Below, one piece after another: positions 10,606-19,914 of a DNA stretch of 25,899 nt. The notes beneath the pieces were generated by a model. The model had not been told where the DNA came from, made no database searches, and saw only the letters and a list, made by a program, of their open reading frames with translations. Position numbers and translations under genes: made by a program. Source of the stretch: a virus; the IMG/VR virus record IMGVR_UViG_3300044675_000271, positions 1-25,899 of that record; one strand, 5' to 3'. The number at the start of each line of letters is the position of its first letter. Position 1 is the first letter of the stretch.

Positions 10606-11544
10606 TCATCCCCTCACATAGCCGGTGGCAGAGGTATTATTAATAGAAGTTGTTCCGCTTCCAGATGTTGCACCGATTGCAATGTAGTATTGATGAAATC
10701 CCTCGGCTGGTTGATGCCATCCACCTAACAAATTGGGGTAATTGGTGCTTGCCCCTGTTGTGTATATGAATTGATAAACACCGTAACCATTCGCTGTACT
10801 GTTATCAAAAACAGCTTGTTGCAACGCAAAGCTGCCTGTCATACCCCCTTGACCAGCAAGCCAAACACAAATTCCATCATCCGCCCAATTCAAACTGTTA
10901 ACCATCGCCGGGCTGACAACCACCTGAGATGTACTTGAAGTAGAGTAATTACTTGCTGTTGCAAAAAAATGTCTATCACGCCTATTAAAATAAGACAAAA
11001 CTTGTCGGCTAGTTGCTACATCAACAAACTGCGACGCCGCACTTGTGTAAATCATGCCCACCAACGTAAAAGCGTTGTTCCCCGACCTGATTCTTACTCC
11101 CACATTTCCTGCTGTGGTGTCTGTTGCATATGCAGTCACACTTGCAGACAGAGTGACGTTACCACCCGAAATATTAGCGTAGATGTAATATCGAGTCGAT
11201 GCCGACAGTCCGCTGTTTGAAAGCGTTACACCAGCAGATGGGATAGCGTAGATTGCCCCAGCAATCTTAATGAATTGACCATTAAATGGAGTTAGCGTTA
11301 AAACGGTAGAACTTGTTGCCACCAATCGACACTGCCCAACTTCTTGGGATAGTCCAGTAATTCCTGAACCTGATCCGGTAAAAGAAGTTGCAGAAAGAGT
11401 ACCAGCAAATGTAGTATTTTGAGATGTATCAATCGTAACCGCAGTTGTAGGTGTAGCACCTGTTTGAAGGACGAGTGCGCCTGTGGTGTCTGCAACAACT
11501 TGGTATGCAGTTGTTATTGTGGTTGATGACTTGATCGTACTCAT
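10606..11544 (-). CDS. Tail fibre protein
   Basis: The 312-residue product starts MSTIKSSTTITTAYQVVADT and has TGALVLQTGATPTTAVTIDT (22-41), then GTLSATSFTGSGSGITGL (48-65), the standard coiled or beta-helical fibre linker. Beta-rich sequence follows (residues 75-190), then a C-terminal domain of about 120 residues with aromatic and Gly-rich loops (GGWHQPAEGFHQYYIAIGA) ending TGYVRG. The N-terminal TTAVTI motif is shared with the C1q fibre at 8568-9182, suggesting a common attachment module with interchangeable tips. Start overlaps the upstream gene by 4 bases. Confidence 0.8.
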   Translation of the reverse strand: MSTIKSSTTITTAYQVVADTTGALVLQTGATPTTAVTIDTSQNTTFAGTLSATSFTGSGSGITGLSQEVGQCRLVATSSTVLTLTPFNGQFIKIAGAIYAIPSAGVTLSNSGLSASTRYYIYANISGGNVTLSASVTAYATDTTAGNVGVRIRSGNNAFTLVGMIYTSAASQFVDVATSRQVLSYFNRRDRHFFATASNYSTSSTSQVVVSPAMVNSLNWADDGICVWLAGQGGMTGSFALQQAVFDNSTANGYGVYQFIYTTGASTNYPNLLGGWHQPAEGFHQYYIAIGATSGSGTTSINNTSATGYVRG

Positions 11545-12011
11545 ATGATTACGTGCCTTTGTCCAGAAGCGATTGTGATCGTCACGCCGCTGTTAATTGT
11601 CAGAGGGCCAACAGTAAAGCCATTCTGCCCCGTGGCAACCGTTCCGCTTACCGTAGCGGTACTAGCATTAAGCAACACTGCTCCAATACCGCCGCCAACA
11701 GCGTTGGCTGTGAACTCTGCGGGGTAGGTAACAAACACATCTTTTGTACCCGCACTGAAGTTGACCAGCGAGCCTGAGTTGCTGGACGAAATAACTGTGG
11801 TTCTGGCAAGCGTTGTACCTGATGAAGTGTATGTACCGATACCAACTTCCCACTCCGATCCTGTTTGCCCAGCAATGGTGTAGTAGGTGGTGTTTCCGTC
11901 ACCAATGGCTGAAAAAGACTGATACCCAGTTGACGCGCCAAGAAGCGTCACTGTTCCCGTACCAGCCGTGGTAGTTGTCTCTTTAACTCGGTCTGCAAGT
12001 ACGAAAGCCAT
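11541..12011 (-). CDS. Conserved tail-associated structural protein
   Basis: The 156-residue product begins MAFVLADRVKETTTTAGTG and has GYQSFSAIGDGNTTYYTI (29-46), GSEWEVGIGTYTSSGTTLAR (51-70) and AGTKDVFVTYPAEFTANA. I recall this VKETTTT.GTG...GYQSF..IGdGNTTYY pattern from many phage virion proteins located just before fibre genes. All-beta composition, no membrane segment. It follows the repeat fibre by 8 bases and is coupled to the next fibre. It may be a connector between tail and fibres; that role is inferred from position. Confidence 0.8.
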   Translation of the reverse strand: MAFVLADRVKETTTTAGTGTVTLLGASTGYQSFSAIGDGNTTYYTIAGQTGSEWEVGIGTYTSSGTTLARTTVISSSNSGSLVNFSAGTKDVFVTYPAEFTANAVGGGIGAVLLNASTATVSGTVATGQNGFTVGPLTINSGVTITIASGQRHVII

Positions 12012-12019
12012 GTGTGTCC

Positions 12020-13831
12020 TTAATCCGTCTCAACCAAAGTCCAGCTAGATGTTTCTGCGTCATCCACCAACGCCCAATTGGATGTTTCTGAGTTATCCAC
12101 CAAAGCCCAGTTAGCTGTTTCCGCGTTATTCACCAACGCCCAGCCAGCAGATTGGGAATTGTTGACATTTTGCCAGTTTGCGGTCTGGCTGTCATCTACC
12201 AACTTCCAGTAGATTGCAATTACATCCCCAACAGAACCTGTAGCCTGAACCCCAGATAGAGCAATAGAAAGAACCGGGCCAACTGAACCAACTGCTCCAG
12301 TAGCACTGTCTCCTGTTAGCGCGACTTCTTTGCTGTGTGTAATTGTTCCCACTGCGCCCGCAGCCGAAACGCCTGTCAACGACCTTATCAGGTTGTAGAT
12401 AACCGATCCTACAAACCCTTCGGCTTGATTACCGTTTTCAGTTGGGCTATTTGTTTCTTCAACTGTACCAACCGCCCCGGAAGCTTCAACCCCTGTCAGT
12501 GCAACTGACTGGCTTTGTACAACAGAACCAACCGCGCCTGATGCTGAAACACCTGACAGGGCTTGGGTGTTTACGAGGCTGACTGTGCCAACACCACCAG
12601 ATGCCTGAACGCCCGTCAAAGCAACTGACTGGCTTTGTGTAACAGAACCAACCGCACCTGTGGCCTCAACACCGGACAGGGCAATTGAAATTACTGGGTC
12701 AACTGTACCAACTTCACCTATCGCTACATCGCCGGATGTCGCATCCGACTCGTTGTAGATCATTGTCCCGACAGCACCGGAAGCCGCCACGCCCGTCAGG
12801 GCAACCGTAGTAATTTCCGTTACCGAACCAACCGCCCCCGAAGCAGATACGCCTGTTAAAGCTATAGAAGCGCTTGGGACAACCGTTCCTACAGAACCTG
12901 TGGCTGCTACCCCAGTGATGGGGAAAGAATTGCTAAATCCAACTGTTCCAGCGCTACCTGCTGCTTGGACACCCGTGAGTGCTATTGTTGTGCTTGGTAC
13001 TGCCGTACCAACGGAGCCTGTGGCTTGGTTGCCGTTTTCAGTTGGGCTGTTTGTTTCTGTAACATCTCCTACGCTACCCGTAGCCGCTACGCCTGTCAGA
13101 GCAATAGACAAAGAAGTTGTTACTGTCCCTACGTTACCTGTGGCGGCATTTCCATTTTCTGCAACGGTACTAGATGGTGTAACAGTGCCAGCATTACCAG
13201 AAGCAAGCACGCCTGTTAGCGCGACTTCTTTGCTGTGTGTAACCGTGCCAACTGCGCCAGAGGCTGAAACTCCAGTAATGGCTATTGTTGTACTCGGTGT
13301 GGTTGTACCCACTGCACCCGTAGCTTGATTGCCGTTTTCGGCAGGGCTGTTTGTCTCTGTGACATCCCCAACAGCACCTGATGCCAATACACCAGTCAGG
13401 GCAACCGTAGTGGTTTCTGTGACATTTCCAACAGCGCCAGAAGCTGCTACCCCGGACAGGGCAATTGTGTTGGTTTCTGTAACGCTTCCAACAGCGCCTG
13501 TGGCTAAAACTCCCGTTAGAGCCTTTGTGGTGGTTTCCGTTACAGAACCAACAGCGCCTGTGGCTGAAACACCTGTCAGAGCAACCGTACGAGACGGTAC
13601 TACTGTGCCTACGTTACCTATCGCAACATTGCCATTTTCTGTCGGATTGTTTGTCTCTGTAACGCTTCCAACAGCCCCAGACGTAGATACACCCGTCAGA
13701 GCAACTGTAATAGTTTCTGTGACATTCCCAACATTCCCAGTCGCAGCTACACCCGTCAGGGCTACGACGACATCTGCAACCTCACCAAGAGCGGCGTACG
13801 GCGACTGGGCATATGCGGATATACCAAACAT
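12020..13831 (-). CDS. Long tandem-repeat fibre-like protein
   Basis: The 603-residue product has a short head (MFGISAYAQSPYAALGEVAD), then about 26 head-to-tail repeats of roughly 20 residues (23-540). The consensus is [VI]ALTGV-x-A-[ST]-G-x-VG-x-V-T-x-[ST]-x-x-x. About six units have a TENGN-like or DATSGD-like first strand instead of ALTGV. The C-terminus (541-603) switches to five 11-residue repeats of the WALVDDAETSN type plus a partial one. Such regular Gly/Val/Thr repeats suggest a beta-solenoid or stacked-strand fibre; the Trp repeats could be a cap or binding surface. The TAG two codons before the ATG fixes the start; the GGAGG upstream is rather distant, with AGG about 9 bases away. 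It lies among tail genes. Confidence 0.85.
   Translation of the reverse strand: MFGISAYAQSPYAALGEVADVVVALTGVAATGNVGNVTETITVALTGVSTSGAVGSVTETNNPTENGNVAIGNVGTVVPSRTVALTGVSATGAVGSVTETTTKALTGVLATGAVGSVTETNTIALSGVAASGAVGNVTETTTVALTGVLASGAVGDVTETNSPAENGNQATGAVGTTTPSTTIAITGVSASGAVGTVTHSKEVALTGVLASGNAGTVTPSSTVAENGNAATGNVGTVTTSLSIALTGVAATGSVGDVTETNSPTENGNQATGSVGTAVPSTTIALTGVQAAGSAGTVGFSNSFPITGVAATGSVGTVVPSASIALTGVSASGAVGSVTEITTVALTGVAASGAVGTMIYNESDATSGDVAIGEVGTVDPVISIALSGVEATGAVGSVTQSQSVALTGVQASGGVGTVSLVNTQALSGVSASGAVGSVVQSQSVALTGVEASGAVGTVEETNSPTENGNQAEGFVGSVIYNLIRSLTGVSAAGAVGTITHSKEVALTGDSATGAVGSVGPVLSIALSGVQATGSVGDVIAIYWKLVDDSQTANWQNVNNSQSAGWALVNNAETANWALVDNSETSNWALVDDAETSSWTLVETD
12023..12211 (-). 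repeat. Five 33-bp repeats coding Trp-containing 11-residue units
   Basis: The fibre C-terminus consists of W-x-x-V-[DN]-[DN]-[SA]-[EQ]-[ST]-[AS]-x units in series, ending in WTLVETD. The period changes sharply from 60 to 33 bases at about 12211. Confidence 0.85.
12212..13765 (-). repeat. About 26 tandem ~60-bp coding repeats
   Basis: Each roughly 60-base unit encodes one 20-residue repeat of the long fibre. Units differ mainly by synonymous or conservative changes, with plus-strand cores like CCTGTCAGAGCAAC recurring. Lengths of 57 to 63 bases occur where the TENGN-type units lie. Confidence 0.88.
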
Positions 13832-13856: not shown

Positions 13857-14333
13857 TTAGGTTGTAGCCAGACGCAACAGTGCTGTTGTTGTGGTGTTTG
13901 CAGGCATCGTCAAAGTGAAAGTACCTGCTGTGATGGTCTGTGAACCAAAAGTGTGGACGCTAACAGCCTTGTTGCTCTGTGTGGAGTTGTAGATTAGCAC
14001 CGCATCAAACGCCGTAGTCAGGGTCACTGAGGTGTACACCAAACTGGCAGAAGGCGTAAAAAAGGCTACGCCAGCGGTTGCTGATGCATTAGTGGCGGTG
14101 GGAGGCGTTGCATTTGTTACAGCTATGCCGCCAGCAGAGTATCCAGTACCGGACACTTCATTGGTCACTGAGTATGCAGTGGTTGATGCGTTGATGGTGG
14201 CGGAAGCCAAGTACAACGCAGCTTTGAAGGTGTCGGCTGCGGATGTGCCACGGGTTGGCGCAGTGCCAAAGTTGTGGGTTGCTGTCATCAACTCGCCCAT
14301 GAACGAGGTACACATTGATTGGGTATTTGCCAT
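13857..14333 (-). CDS. Virion protein, paralogue of the 14537-14959 gene
   Basis: The 158-residue product starts MANTQSMCTSFMGELMTATHNF and carries ADTFKAALYLASATINASTTAYSVTNEV (split, 33-60), then GYSAGGIAVTNATPP, and ends in a TFTLTMPANTTTTALLRLA strand. The same order of elements (C-x-SF...LM, ALY...AT-x-NAST-x-AY...EV...GY-x-AGG, ...TFT...P) appears in the 140-residue product encoded at 14537-14959, so the two are duplicates that have diverged. All-beta composition. It lies between tail adaptor and fibre genes, which suggests a tail or decoration role; no exact function recognised. Confidence 0.78.
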   Translation of the reverse strand: MANTQSMCTSFMGELMTATHNFGTAPTRGTSAADTFKAALYLASATINASTTAYSVTNEVSGTGYSAGGIAVTNATPPTATNASATAGVAFFTPSASLVYTSVTLTTAFDAVLIYNSTQSNKAVSVHTFGSQTITAGTFTLTMPANTTTTALLRLATT

Positions 14334-14342
14334 GATATTTCC

Positions 14343-14537
14343 TTAAAAAGAAGCTGCCTCGCCACCAGCAAACACAGGTGGCTTTTTCAAAGTTACATGA
14401 GCAGAACGGTGGACAAGCTCTCCGTCCAACCAGTACTCAACCCATGTGGTGAGTTCATTGTCATTATCGACTGTACCCTCTCGCTTTTCAAGCAGAGATT
14501 CGTCCATGTCGCCTTTGGTTGTGGTTACAAGTGCCAT
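14343..14537 (-). CDS. Small conserved phage protein (64 residues)
   Basis: The product is hydrophilic: MALVTTTKGDMDESLLEKRE at the start, then WVEYWLDGELVHRSAHVTLKK (split, 32-52) and a Gly/Ala end. It lies between the two paralogous virion genes, sharing one base with the upstream gene (TAATG-type coupling) and lying 9 bases before the next start. The EYWLDGELVHRSAHV strand pair looks like part of a small beta-fold. I do not recognise a function. Confidence 0.65.
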   Translation of the reverse strand: MALVTTTKGDMDESLLEKREGTVDNDNELTTWVEYWLDGELVHRSAHVTLKKPPVFAGGEAASF

Positions 14538-14959
14538 TACGCTATCCTTATGATTGCTGATGTGTTTGATACAACGGGGAACTGTACCGTGAATGTTGTT
14601 GTTGAAGTCTTATCTGCGCCAAAGTCAAGCACACAAACTCCACCACCTGCTCCAACTTTGTAAATCAATGCGCCACGGGCAGTTAGGGCTGAAGTCCAGA
14701 CCGCATTGTTGAATGATATATATGCTGTATTACCAGAGCTACCTACCGTGGGAGTTTGCGCAATCGTGAGCGCCAAGCCGCCAGCCGTGTACCCAGAAGC
14801 CACAACTTCGCCCGTAGACGTATAAGCCGAGGTAGAGGCATTAAGCGTGGCTGCATTTGTATACAAGGCCATGTAGAACACGCCGGACGTAAAATCGAAC
14901 GTCCCGTTCATCAACCCTGTTTTGAATGAGTCGCAAGACCAATTGCCTGTAAAAGCCAT
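14537..14959 (-). CDS. Virion protein, paralogue of the 13857-14333 gene
   Basis: The 140-residue product starts MAFTGNWSCDSFKTGLMNGT, then FDFTSGVFYMALYTNAATLNAS (split, 21-42), AYTSTGEVVASGYTAGGLAL (45-64) and GALIYKVGAGGGVCVLDFGA. I recall proteins with this F...LM.GTFDF...F.MALYT..A.L.A.T.AYT...EV..SGYTAGG pattern as conserved phage structural proteins. It directly follows the adaptor gene (one-base overlap) and has a diverged copy two genes downstream. A tail-decoration or connector role is inferred from place and all-beta composition. Confidence 0.8.
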   Translation of the reverse strand: MAFTGNWSCDSFKTGLMNGTFDFTSGVFYMALYTNAATLNASTSAYTSTGEVVASGYTAGGLALTIAQTPTVGSSGNTAYISFNNAVWTSALTARGALIYKVGAGGGVCVLDFGADKTSTTTFTVQFPVVSNTSAIIRIA

Positions 14960-15681
14960 CAGGTCACCGCCTGTCTATACTGACCCGAACGATACGCATC
15001 CTGACGCTCCATGCCATCGCCCAGACGTTTAGCCAATGCAAGCGCTTCCTTATACTTCATGTCATATCCAGCAATGATATCGACCTCACCCTTCATGAAG
15101 GTGTAGGCCTCAACCAAAGAGCCGTACAACAGCACAGAGTCAAAGTTGTCACCGAGCCATGTCTGACCAGAAGCGACAGTAGTAATTGACTCTGGGTAGT
15201 AATAGTAATGCAGCTCTACGTAATACGTGGCATCAGGTGTTGGGCCAACAATAAGAGAAAGCTCGTTTGTGATTGCCGAACTGATAATTGTCGGGCCAAA
15301 CAAAGCGTAGTACTTTGGCTCCCCTGTGTCGTTTGGCGTTGGGTATGCCTGACGAATGAAGTTCACGTCCTTGTTCAACAAATACTCAAACGTGCCTGTG
15401 TCCAAGTTTCCGCCGACAACACCTGTCACCAGCGCCAAGGAATAAACCGCCAGAAAATCTTCTGGTAAAGATATGTACTTGTTGTTTACAGTGATCGGAG
15501 TGTACTGATTCTTACGCAGTGATGGGAATTGAATCGAGTTGTATATACGTTGCTCAGCCTGCGTGATGAACATATTGATCTGCGTGGTTGCAGATACAGT
15601 ACTTCCACTCGCAAGGTATACATCGGGGAACTGATTCTCCGTGTATGTCTGAATCGTGTTATACAACGACGTGTAGTTCAT
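14959..15681 (-). CDS. Head-tail adaptor protein, SU10-adaptor-like
   Basis: The 240-residue product begins with a helix NYTSLYNTIQTYTENQFPDV (split, 2-21), then INMFITQAEQRIYNSIQFPSLRK (split, 35-57) and YISLPEDFLAVYSLAL (69-84). It ends with the helical GSLVEAYTFMKGEVDIIAGY block and EALALAKRLGDGMERQDAYRSG. This arrangement is that of adaptor proteins of the SU10/T7 gp11/P22 gp4 type, which form the ring joining portal to tail. The Tyr-rich middle (YYVELHYYYYPES) is a strand pair. Start overlaps the previous gene by 4 bases. It is consistent with a podovirus-like tail. Confidence 0.82.
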   Translation of the reverse strand: MNYTSLYNTIQTYTENQFPDVYLASGSTVSATTQINMFITQAEQRIYNSIQFPSLRKNQYTPITVNNKYISLPEDFLAVYSLALVTGVVGGNLDTGTFEYLLNKDVNFIRQAYPTPNDTGEPKYYALFGPTIISSAITNELSLIVGPTPDATYYVELHYYYYPESITTVASGQTWLGDNFDSVLLYGSLVEAYTFMKGEVDIIAGYDMKYKEALALAKRLGDGMERQDAYRSGQYRQAVT

Positions 15682-15944
15682 GCCATCGGGCCTCTAGCCA
15701 TCACGCCTTTGGTGGCGCAGCCAGTACCACGAACTTTGATACCGTCGGTTTTGACAGGCTGATTACCCGCAAATTTACTGATGTTGCCAACGCTCATGTT
15801 GACCGTTTTGGATTCGCTGCGGTTTGGCAATTTGCCGGGGTTGGGTTCAATCCCCACAGCTTTGCCAGTCATGGTGTGTGGCTCCGCATACACAGCTGCG
15901 TTACCAACTTCTTTGCCCATTCGTTTGTCGCTGAATTTAGCCAT
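15678..15944 (-). CDS. Small basic phage protein with DGIKxRGTGxATKG tail
   Basis: The 88-residue product starts MAKFSDKRMGKEVGNAAVYA and ends VKTDGIKVRGTGCATKGVMA plus RGPMA. The terminal DGI-x-x-RG-x-G-x-ATKG resembles the C-terminal peptide of the proteins encoded at 17967-19914. The N-terminal part is polar with PHTMTGKAVGIEPNPGK. The gene is coupled at both ends (TAATG at 15944, ATGA at 15678-15681). Function unknown; position beside the tail adaptor suggests head or tail completion. Confidence 0.72.
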   Translation of the reverse strand: MAKFSDKRMGKEVGNAAVYAEPHTMTGKAVGIEPNPGKLPNRSESKTVNMSVGNISKFAGNQPVKTDGIKVRGTGCATKGVMARGPMA

Positions 15945-17963: not shown

Positions 17964-18017
17964 GATTTAGCACATCTTTCCGCGAGTCTTACCTCGCTGA
18001 GCAATGCCATCAGCACG
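17961..18017 (-). repeat. Copy 1 of duplicated gene-end/gene-start junction
   Basis: This 57-base stretch matches 18207-18263 at 51 of 57 positions by hand alignment. It covers the last codons of the tail peptide, the stop, a 3-base spacer and the ATG of the next gene. The copy at 18207 plays exactly the same part one gene upstream. Confidence 0.85.
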
Positions 18018-18209
18018 GCTAGAGGCTGTGCCGCCAGAAGCCATGTTTTTGATTTTATATGCAGCTTCGGTCTTACGTTGGGTATTGGCCTCTTCTTTCT
18101 GAGCATTCATCTTTTTGATGTCTTCAGAAGTCATAGAGTCCTCGTAAGTCGTGCCGGGGCGACGTGGTTTATACGCGCCCATTGTTCCAGCTTGTGTACT
18201 AGTAGCCAT
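17967..18209 (-). CDS. Small basic protein with RADGIAQRGKTRGKMC tail
   Basis: The 80-residue product has a basic, Thr/Tyr-containing N-terminus (MATSTQAGTMGAYKPRRPGT), a charged helix (EDIKKMNAQKEEANTQRKTE), and then MASGGTASSRADGIAQ plus RGKTRGKMC at the very end. The last 20 residues are nearly the same as the end of the 221-residue product encoded upstream, also at the DNA level. It starts 3 bases after that gene's stop; the GGAAGGA within the upstream tail codons is the only nearby ribosome site. Function unknown. See the shared C-terminal peptide finding. Confidence 0.74.
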   Translation of the reverse strand: MATSTQAGTMGAYKPRRPGTTYEDSMTSEDIKKMNAQKEEANTQRKTEAAYKIKNMASGGTASSRADGIAQRGKTRGKMC

Positions 18210-18263
18210 GATTTAACACATCCTTCCGCGAGTCTTACCCCGCTGAGCAATACCATCCCCACG
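18207..18263 (-). repeat. Copy 2 of duplicated gene-end/gene-start junction
   Basis: Partner of 17961-18017; both contain CGCGGAA-R-GATGTG-Y-TAAATCATG on the minus strand. Beyond about 57 bases the similarity fades quickly, although MASxG codons follow in both genes. Confidence 0.85.
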
Positions 18264-18878
18264 ACGTGAGGCCGAAACAGAACCACTGGAAGCCATCTTC
18301 TTAACTGCGCCACCACGCTTAAAAGAAAAAGCTTCGTCCGGTAAAAATTTATTTGCCCTTGAAACAGCCTCAGCCGTTTCTTTTGCCTCCGCAGCAGCTG
18401 CAATATCATCTGCATCTTTTGACGCCGCTTTAGTAAACCGTGCTTCTCTAACAGCCTTTGCCGGAGCGCTATTTTTTACCGCATTAACGCCAGTAGTTAC
18501 CGCAGACCGTACTTTATCCGCAGACTCTAGGGGCCTTGCAACTGCGCTAAGAACTGCCCGCCCCGGGTTAAGAAGAAGCTCAGGGTGTGAACCCTCAAGC
18601 GCTTGTGAGCTTTCCATCTCATCACGTTTTTTACGCTCTGCTGGAGACAACTCGCTTTTTAGCTTTGGTTTATACGGAGCAGGAGCAGGAGGGGTATCTA
18701 CTTTTGTTGGCGCATCTACTTTTGCTGAAATAGTTTCTTTTACAGGGGTGGCTTTTTTCGCAGGCGCTGAGCCCTCTTCCTTGTACTTGGTGTTGTACTT
18801 TTTACCCTTAAACTCAAACTCTTTATCGCCGCTAGATCGCGCCGATTTAAAAGCTTTTTCAAATTCACTAAGCGCCAT
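18213..18878 (-). CDS. Basic/Ala-rich protein with shared C-terminal peptide
   Basis: The 221-residue product begins with a compact module MALSEFEKAFKSARSSGDKE plus FEFKGKKYNTKYKEE (F..AF..AR..G...F...GK.Y.T.Y), a pattern I recall at the start of several phage proteins. A Lys/Pro/Ala-rich linker (36-80) and a helical Ala-rich part (100-180) follow. The end is FKRGGAVKKMASSGSVSASR plus RGDGIAQRGKTRGRMC. The start ATG follows TAAGGAG in which the TAA is the upstream stop. The final peptide is shared with neighbouring genes. It could be a head-interior or DNA-binding protein from its charge; that is only an inference. Confidence 0.75.
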   Translation of the reverse strand: MALSEFEKAFKSARSSGDKEFEFKGKKYNTKYKEEGSAPAKKATPVKETISAKVDAPTKVDTPPAPAPYKPKLKSELSPAERKKRDEMESSQALEGSHPELLLNPGRAVLSAVARPLESADKVRSAVTTGVNAVKNSAPAKAVREARFTKAASKDADDIAAAAEAKETAEAVSRANKFLPDEAFSFKRGGAVKKMASSGSVSASRRGDGIAQRGKTRGRMC

Positions 18879-18887
18879 GATTACTCC

Positions 18888-19355
18888 TTAGCAGGTTTTA
18901 CCGCCAGATTTCATCTTAACCATCATGCCTTTGGTTTTGCCTTTTGTAGCAACGCCGTCAGCGGCTTTATGACCAGCAGCTAAGCCGCCTTTTTTCATCG
19001 CGCCCTTACCGTCACCAATAAAAGCAGGTTTACCGTCTTTCATAGGCATACCACCAGCAGCCATCTTAGTCATGCCGCCTTTTTTCATCATGCCCATACC
19101 ACCAGCAGGAGGCATTGCAGGACGGGCAGGAGCCATAGCGCCTTTACCAGCACCACGTTTTTTAGCAGCCGCCACCGCCATCATCTTGGGATCCATTTTT
19201 GTAGCCATATCACCACCTCTTTTAAAAGTTTTGCCTTTGTCGGCGTTTGAAAATTCTTTGCCCACAGACTGCGGGACTCCTGCTTTCTTGGCAAACGCTG
19301 GATTGTGGGCCACCGCTTCCATGAATCTGTGTTGCTTTGCACTACTGCTTGGCAT
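18888..19355 (-). CDS. Met/Lys/Gly-rich protein with repeated MKKGG motifs
   Basis: I place the start at the ATG ending at 19355, sharing one base with the upstream TGA (TGATG); a GTG one codon earlier is possible. The 155-residue product has an N-terminal module PSSSAKQHRFMEAVAHNPAF plus AKKAGVPQSVGKEFSNADKGK, similar to short phage proteins with a KQ-RFM pattern. A long low-complexity part follows with MMKKGGMTKMAAGGM and AMKKGGLAAG repeats, and then AADGVATKGKTKGMM and a GGKTC end. It carries a variant of the shared KGKTKG peptide. Strongly basic, no membrane segment despite its Met content. Function unknown. Confidence 0.75.
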   Translation of the reverse strand: MPSSSAKQHRFMEAVAHNPAFAKKAGVPQSVGKEFSNADKGKTFKRGGDMATKMDPKMMAVAAAKKRGAGKGAMAPARPAMPPAGGMGMMKKGGMTKMAAGGMPMKDGKPAFIGDGKGAMKKGGLAAGHKAADGVATKGKTKGMMVKMKSGGKTC

Positions 19356-19594
19356 CACTTCCCCGCTTGAATAAGCTGGTCAATTTTTGCTTCAAGGCGA
19401 TTAAACCGTTGGTCAATGTGGTCAGTAATTCTCTGAACTTCTGCATTAGTTGTGTAATCACGGGCGATCTCCTCACGGGTTATGTTGAGCAAACGCTCAA
19501 CTCGTTTGACATCTTCAAACTTTTCTCGAATGAAAAACCAAAGTCCTGCCAACATAGCAGACAAAATGGCTGACCAGATTGTATTGACGTCCAT
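19355..19594 (-). CDS. Small membrane-anchored coiled-coil protein
   Basis: The 79-residue product has an N-terminal membrane segment (IWSAILSAMLAGLWFFI, 6-22) followed by a charged coiled coil to the end (REKFEDVKRVERLLNITREE, then VQRITDHIDQRFNRLEAKID). This topology is common in small phage proteins annotated as holin-like or hypothetical. It lies inside the basic-protein island, far from the holin and endolysin at 5610-6457, so a holin role is doubtful. It is coupled upstream by TAATG and downstream by TGATG. It might anchor a complex to the inner membrane. Confidence 0.74.
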   Translation of the reverse strand: MDVNTIWSAILSAMLAGLWFFIREKFEDVKRVERLLNITREEIARDYTTNAEVQRITDHIDQRFNRLEAKIDQLIQAGK

Positions 19595-19914
19595 TAAACA
19601 AACCTACCCTTTGTTTTGCCTTTGACAGCACAGCCATCTGCACGAGAAGAAGCGCTGGAGACTTTGCCGCCTTTTTTAAACTTGGGTTTCCTCAACCCAA
19701 TCACTTTACCCCGTGTTTCGCGTTTTACTTCATCATCCGCCTCATCTCTTGCAGATTTTATTGACTCTAACTTATCCTCCCGAGAAGTTTTAGGGTCAAG
19801 AACTGTGTTGTAATATTTTTTTTCGCCCGCGTGTTCGCCAATTTTAGTTTTTGCTAGGCTAAGTTCTTCAGACGTACGGTCTTTAAAATCTGGGAACGAT
19901 AATTTTTGTGGCAT
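19594..19914 (-). CDS. Small charged protein with RADGCAVKGKTKGRFV tail
   Basis: The 106-residue product is mainly charged helix: LSFPDFKDRTSEELSLAKTK (5-24), EDKLESIKSARDEADDEVKRE (split, 46-66), followed by GKVIGLRKPKFKKGGKVSSA and SSRADGCAVKGKTKGRFV. The end is another copy of the shared C-terminal peptide (SSRADG-x-A-x-KGKTKGR). The start lies 6 bases after a GAGG, part of the upstream TGA context. No recognised domain. The acid/base split (helical body, basic tail) would suit binding to a virion surface or to DNA. Confidence 0.74.
   Translation of the reverse strand: MPQKLSFPDFKDRTSEELSLAKTKIGEHAGEKKYYNTVLDPKTSREDKLESIKSARDEADDEVKRETRGKVIGLRKPKFKKGGKVSSASSRADGCAVKGKTKGRFV

Follow-up and report, generated by a model that had tools for sequence, protein, structure and literature searches.

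Repeat shafts are already known from phage fibres. In the Kuravirus SU10, the adaptor is the docking site of the long tail fibre, the fibres attach by their N-terminus, and a fibre-dock loop of the nozzle presents three Trp residues (the Trp star), 8 and 10 residues apart, that dock a trimeric fibre (PMC9509320). Among phages from aquatic environments, DSL-LC04 was assembled from a metagenome of Dishui Lake (PMC10611076), and curli genes have been described among the auxiliary genes of HTVC023P-type pelagiphages (PMC9599517). Tandem repeats in phage proteins have also been studied in crAssphage, where those of the BACON domain were considered as a hotspot of evolution (PMC6949934). A search of the open-access full-text literature found no description of a modular design in which interchangeable arrays share a conserved period.

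The window analysed here is a 25,899-nucleotide stretch of DNA from a freshwater virus of bacteria (IMG/VR record IMGVR_UViG_3300044675_000271), and Table 1 presents an overview of its repeat gene and neighbours. The initial annotation described 26 twenty-residue repeats in a 603-residue protein followed by an abrupt change to 11-residue Trp repeats. This anatomy stands, although the location of the gene on the minus strand had been overlooked. The units are all exactly 20 residues long and in register, and Gly is invariant at unit positions 5, 10 and 13 (26 of 26 in each case). Self-identity of the protein amounts to 0.48, 0.52 and 0.53 at lags of 20, 40 and 60 residues, respectively, compared with a maximum of 0.17 at any shift in 300 shuffles, and its composition is rich in A, G, T, S and V. 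The tail Trp residues stand at positions 542, 553, 564, 575, 586 and 597, the first of them being the final residue of unit 26. What an account of the gene as nearly pure repeats missed is that the array is replaceable and lies between two conserved ends, an N-terminal anchor (the 22-residue start MFGISAYAQSPYAALGEVADVV in this protein) and the Trp tail.

Table 1. The repeat gene, its parts and the adjacent genes (positions in the window).
Feature	Position	Strand	Type or family
Repeat-shaft gene (P0001), 603 aa	12020..13831	-	ORF
N-terminal anchor, aa 1-22 (MFGISAYAQSPYAALGE...), kept in relatives, including those with unrelated shafts	13766..13831	-	
26-unit array with 20 residues per unit (aa 23-542); consensus VALTGVSASGAVGSVTETTT	12206..13765	-	
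Trp tail at the C-terminus (aa 542-603), six W at 11-residue intervals	12023..12208	-	
ENGN-type variant unit 3	13586..13645	-	
ENGN-type variant unit 8	13286..13345	-	
ENGN-type variant unit 11	13106..13165	-	
ENGN-type variant unit 13	12986..13045	-	
Unit 18 (DATSGDVAIGEVGT), within block YNESDAT.GD recurring in most short relatives	12686..12745	-	
ENGN-type variant unit 23	12386..12445	-	
phrog_644 protein immediately upstream of the repeat gene; family match adjoins the repeat gene in 56/56 distinct relatives	13857..14333	-	
Small conserved 64-aa protein between the two phrog_644 genes; 56/56	14343..14537	-	
phrog_644 paralogue	14537..14959	-	
SU10-type adaptor (PF24175, E 3e-21); head-tail ring carrying the tail	14959..15681	-	Pfam SU10_adaptor
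Stand-alone protein similar to the N-terminal part of proteins annotated as tail fibres (CRP-603 gp58, ct7L0027); 3' of the repeat gene in most relatives	11541..12011	-	

Searches with the repeat protein against Pfam (no hit at E<1), PHROGs and PDB sequences assigned it to no family and found no homologue of known function. The position of the gene points to a virion fibre or shaft as the likeliest role, in agreement with the fibre originally proposed. In all 56 distinct relatives, a phrog_644 gene, the small gene, a second phrog_644 gene and the repeat gene follow one another on the same strand. A homologue of the adaptor is present in 55 of the 56, and one of the fibre-like protein in 42, nearly always directly downstream; the likeness of the latter to fibre N-terminal regions (CRP-603, ct7L0027) and to a stand-alone HTVC023P protein was recognised by eye. 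All nine other records tested also contained the adaptor family, and in most relatives it lies about 1.2 kb upstream with the phrog_644 genes in between. No repeat gene is recognisable at this slot in HTVC023P, CRP-603 and ct7L0027, where a fibre-type gene itself occupies it. The repeat gene would therefore be an optional insertion between neck and fibre; either tails of this type can do without it or something else has taken its place in those phages. The phrog_644 family, of unknown function, also has weak matches in jumbo Caulobacter phages.

Other genes of the minus strand have features of their own. A 654-residue protein (740-2704) begins with a low-complexity stretch of Ala and Glu that includes tandem repeats (2416-2635), carries MAxGG motifs at scattered places, and matched no family. 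Four consecutive small or basic proteins (17967-18209, 18213-18878, 18888-19358 and 19594-19914) are otherwise unlike but share a C-terminal motif, for example SSRADGIAQRGKTRGKMC or ADGVATKGKTKG, and a looser version of it, KVRGTGCATKGVMARG, closes 15678-15944.

The window protein, itself uncharacterised, belongs to a large environmental family, with relatives encoded on 151 IMG/VR stretches. Bacterial genomes contributed a single distant stretch, in a metagenome-assembled genome on a contig of 3.4 kb, which is uninformative on the host. The earlier suggestion that unit number varies between phages is borne out, since it ranges overall from about 2 to 48 in related contigs. Complete relatives in the first set span 222 to 1011 residues and 7 to 48 units, those recognised by the counter in a second sample, picked by the upstream gene, have 6 to 30 units, and shorter forms of 111-139 residues carry two to four units as judged by eye. 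Of 966 unit spacings across relatives, 756 equal 20 residues and nearly all others fall within 18-22. Unit number also changes between close relatives. In the most similar pairs that differ in length, the DNA flanks of L071 or L073 are 93-96% identical to those of L027, yet the proteins have 7 versus 16 units and 6 versus 4 Trp; for L071 and L027, flanks of 94.0% and 94.7% identity enclose this nine-unit difference.

Recombination between phages appears to have shaped the window gene as well. Its nucleotides 454-1010 are 89% identical to L008 and L001, with L012 also among the closest to the middle, while its start is best matched by L050 (94%) and its end by L010 (90%); by these matches the gene is a mosaic. 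Three relatives of equal length (L019, L021 and L025, 1011 residues each) differ in sharp internal patches, a pattern that suggests gene conversion between units.

Between units of the window gene, mean pS is 0.70 and mean pN 0.375 (0.27 in the core), with synonymous sites near saturation and the invariant Gly residues encoded by all four codons, and pN/pS among orthologues is roughly 0.1-0.28. The copies are ancient, and purifying selection on the protein has kept them similar; selection on the protein had been read from the synonymous differences at the outset. The near-saturation of synonymous sites, together with the core pN and the Gly codons, rules out recent slippage. An assembly artefact in the repeat count, which the initial annotation had raised as a concern, is likewise ruled out because the units are old and the longest exact repeat within the gene is 31 nt, below ordinary short-read length. 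Copies of equal length also occur in separate assemblies, for example a 654-residue form in five contigs.

The central result came from sampling by the upstream phrog_644 gene or by the anchor. Four of the contigs chosen by phrog_644 (L128, L136, L157 and L166) share the anchor, here VFGISAFSQAPFSSL, and the Trp tail, and between these ends lies a different array, SETATATDSVSAAATF.... These ETATATD arrays also have a period of 20, with a lag-20 identity of 0.26-0.46 versus at most 0.23 in shuffles. Alignment of the ETATATD and window unit profiles by hhalign gave an E-value of 0.89, similar to a column-shuffled control. The comparison lends no support to a shared origin of these two main kinds of unit, although they may have a very old one. 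A scan with the anchor alone recovered at least 79 contigs. Among the anchor matches listed (79 contigs), about half carry the array type of the window and the others include several further classes, such as ASITGTATVTANGIRIQ and LTENSGLADSSTQTSAF; the period is mostly 20, in some 21 or 22, and a few arrays have no clear period. Nearly all complete proteins among these listed matches end in Trp, or Trp and Tyr, spaced 10 or 11 residues apart. As judged from sequence, then, arrays of several unrelated kinds, mostly of period 20 and sometimes of 21-22, occur between one type of anchor and one type of Trp tail. Single-sequence searches around the anchor matches listed, limited to contigs with enough sequence, located phrog_644 upstream in 38 of 72, the adaptor in 36 of 47 and the fibre domain in 42 of 67, and the slot is therefore shown directly only for the closer relatives.

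Across 82 non-redundant proteins, the C-terminal aromatic run comprises two residues in 16 proteins, three in 9, four in 41 and six in 16. A run of five was absent from these 82 sequences, which are mutually related, and a strictly even number is ruled out by the nine proteins with three. Runs of four and of six both occur with unrelated arrays. BLAST searches against isolate phages matched the Trp tail to DSL-LC04 only and the ETATATD shaft to nothing. The slot can also hold long proteins beginning MADRYW..., rich in T, G and N and with TTTGTQVVNVTS repeats (L092 5189-7555, L104 5008-7659 and L110 5303-8419); one or a few ETATATD units close the L092 and L104 proteins, the latter also having a Trp tail at its end.

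Turning to the fold, the protein has the tandem units of constant length, with hydrophobic and Gly residues at constant positions, that are expected of a beta-solenoid, and the beta-solenoid suggested initially is plausible. Such a solenoid would rise by about 0.48 nm per unit, or some 12 nm for 26 units. An AlphaFold monomer of the window protein places two strands per unit, with strands in nearly every unit, at a mean pLDDT of 47.8 and a pTM of 0.36; a 221-residue relative reached a mean pLDDT of 31.5. With monomer models at pLDDT 31 and 48, the strands agree with the suggested fold and the fold itself is unproven. Obligate trimers are often poorly predicted as monomers. Neighbours found by Foldseek in the PDB were mostly left-handed beta-helices, none of them significant (best E 0.036), and matches to viral models were set aside at TM-scores <0.35. 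A trimeric autotransporter (YadA-like) head was sought and gave no Pfam hit at E<1, the BpaC head matching in Foldseek at E 0.036 with a probability of 0.18. Searches of PHROGs and Pfam gave no match to known fibre families. A collagen-like fibre was rejected, as there are no G-X-Y triplets and the invariant Gly residues occupy unit positions 5, 10 and 13 only.

Superimposed on the array is a second unit type. In units 3, 8, 11, 13 and 23, E-N-G-N replaces L-T-G-V, and unit 18 has T-S-G-D there. A variant had been reported every two to five units, which holds only if unit 18 is counted; the ENGN units by themselves are spaced by 5, 3, 2 and 10. The regular spacing also claimed is not seen in the window, where 51% of permutations match or exceed the observed regularity, and is found instead in long relatives (0/5000 for L019 with 48 units; p=0.0024 for L016 with 41 units). 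Over 16 representatives, no adjacent variant units were observed versus 11.1 expected (0/5000). A TETN[NS]P segment precedes most ENGN units, and of 129 variant units 96 have Pro two residues ahead of the E, compared with 23 of 890 other units. Since Pro takes this place in most variant units, the variant is best described as a module straddling two units.

Considered together, these findings suggest that the repeat protein probably belongs to the virion of a podovirus, a short-tailed phage, where it would form a modular shaft or arm of variable length on the tail, level with the adaptor and fibre. Attachment to the tail may be through the short, aromatic N-terminal anchor, and the tandem array would build a stiff, beta-rich rod that is longer or shorter according to the number of units. 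The Trp-repeat tail, in turn, may cap the rod or hold a partner, possibly the fibre from the neighbouring gene. Under such an arrangement the ends would be conserved for fit, while the rod could gain or lose whole units, recombine between phages or be swapped for another repeat of 20-22 residues. The exchange of rod sequence with retention of unit length argues that the job of the rod may be mechanical. More tentatively, the proteins might constitute a tail-arm family with two fixed ends, in which interchangeable, unrelated arrays retain rungs of 20-22 residues and length varies by whole rungs; the Trp tail could then be a dock for a trimeric fibre or a continuation of the solenoid by two 11-residue halves per rung, and fibre reach would be tuned by unit number.

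An unlikely alternative to such an arm is that the array itself is a receptor- or glycan-binding adhesin, with the loops of the ENGN units as the binding sites and length as a by-product. The placement of these units, mostly behind TETN[NS]P, never adjacent and near-regular in long relatives, would suit this reading, but many short relatives have no ENGN unit at all and arrays of unrelated sequence lack it altogether. About equally unlikely is a decoration of the head or neck, or an internal or ejected protein. Its closest invariant neighbours are indeed two phrog_644 proteins of unknown role beside the adaptor; however, the product of the next gene looks like the N-terminal part of a tail fibre, and the extreme length variation fits an external arm better than a packed internal part.

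A low-complexity linker without a defined fold is improbable. While the low pLDDT of the short relative and a composition dominated by A, G, T, S and V could be read this way, the strict register over 26 of 26 units, the three invariant Gly residues in four codons, the hydrophobic pattern, the strands modelled in nearly every unit and the 20-22 period retained by unrelated arrays all argue for defined structure. A curli-like functional amyloid, called to mind by the csgA/B/F/G genes that related phages carry (PMC9599517) and by a repeat length near that of curli, can hardly be entertained. The unit is unlike the curli repeat as generally known, the gene sits in a structural cassette away from secretion genes, neither a curli repeat in the unit consensus nor csg genes in the neighbourhood were found when looked for, and the Foldseek match to CsgA is insignificant (E 1.9).

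If the protein is a tail arm, nature has supplied a series in which the ends are constant, the unit number runs from 2 to 48 and several unrelated unit sequences share one period. Such a series would serve as a ready-made test of how adsorption depends on the length of the arm and the sequence of the rod. The same set would probe what fixes the rung length of β-rods. In addition, the anchor and Trp tail offer a handle by which to name a family whose tested members go unrecognised by Pfam and PHROGs.

Among the known systems, the BACON-domain protein of crAssphage is alike in having tandem repeats but repeats a folded domain rather than 20-residue units. SU10 has an adaptor of the same Pfam family near its long and short tail fibres and nozzle loop. 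No sequence relation to these was found, and here the Trp residues are C-terminal on a separate repeat protein, in 2-6 copies 10-11 residues apart. In the cultured Pelagibacter phage HTVC027P, gp68 (QGZ17849.1) occupies this slot, directly after an adaptor homologue (gp66) and a phrog_644 protein (gp67). It has a GWG N-terminus, VTGFALSANLGSVTV-like (VTG) repeats and Trp near its end, a likeness recognised by eye from sequence and position, as the protein is too diverged for a BLAST match. A clearer relative is DSL-LC04 WJZ48131.1: while this 376-residue protein is annotated as hypothetical, begins with a GWG-type N-terminus and shows about 30% identity, it shares GVQATGQVG-type repeats, a Trp tail and the gene order from adaptor to stabilization protein.
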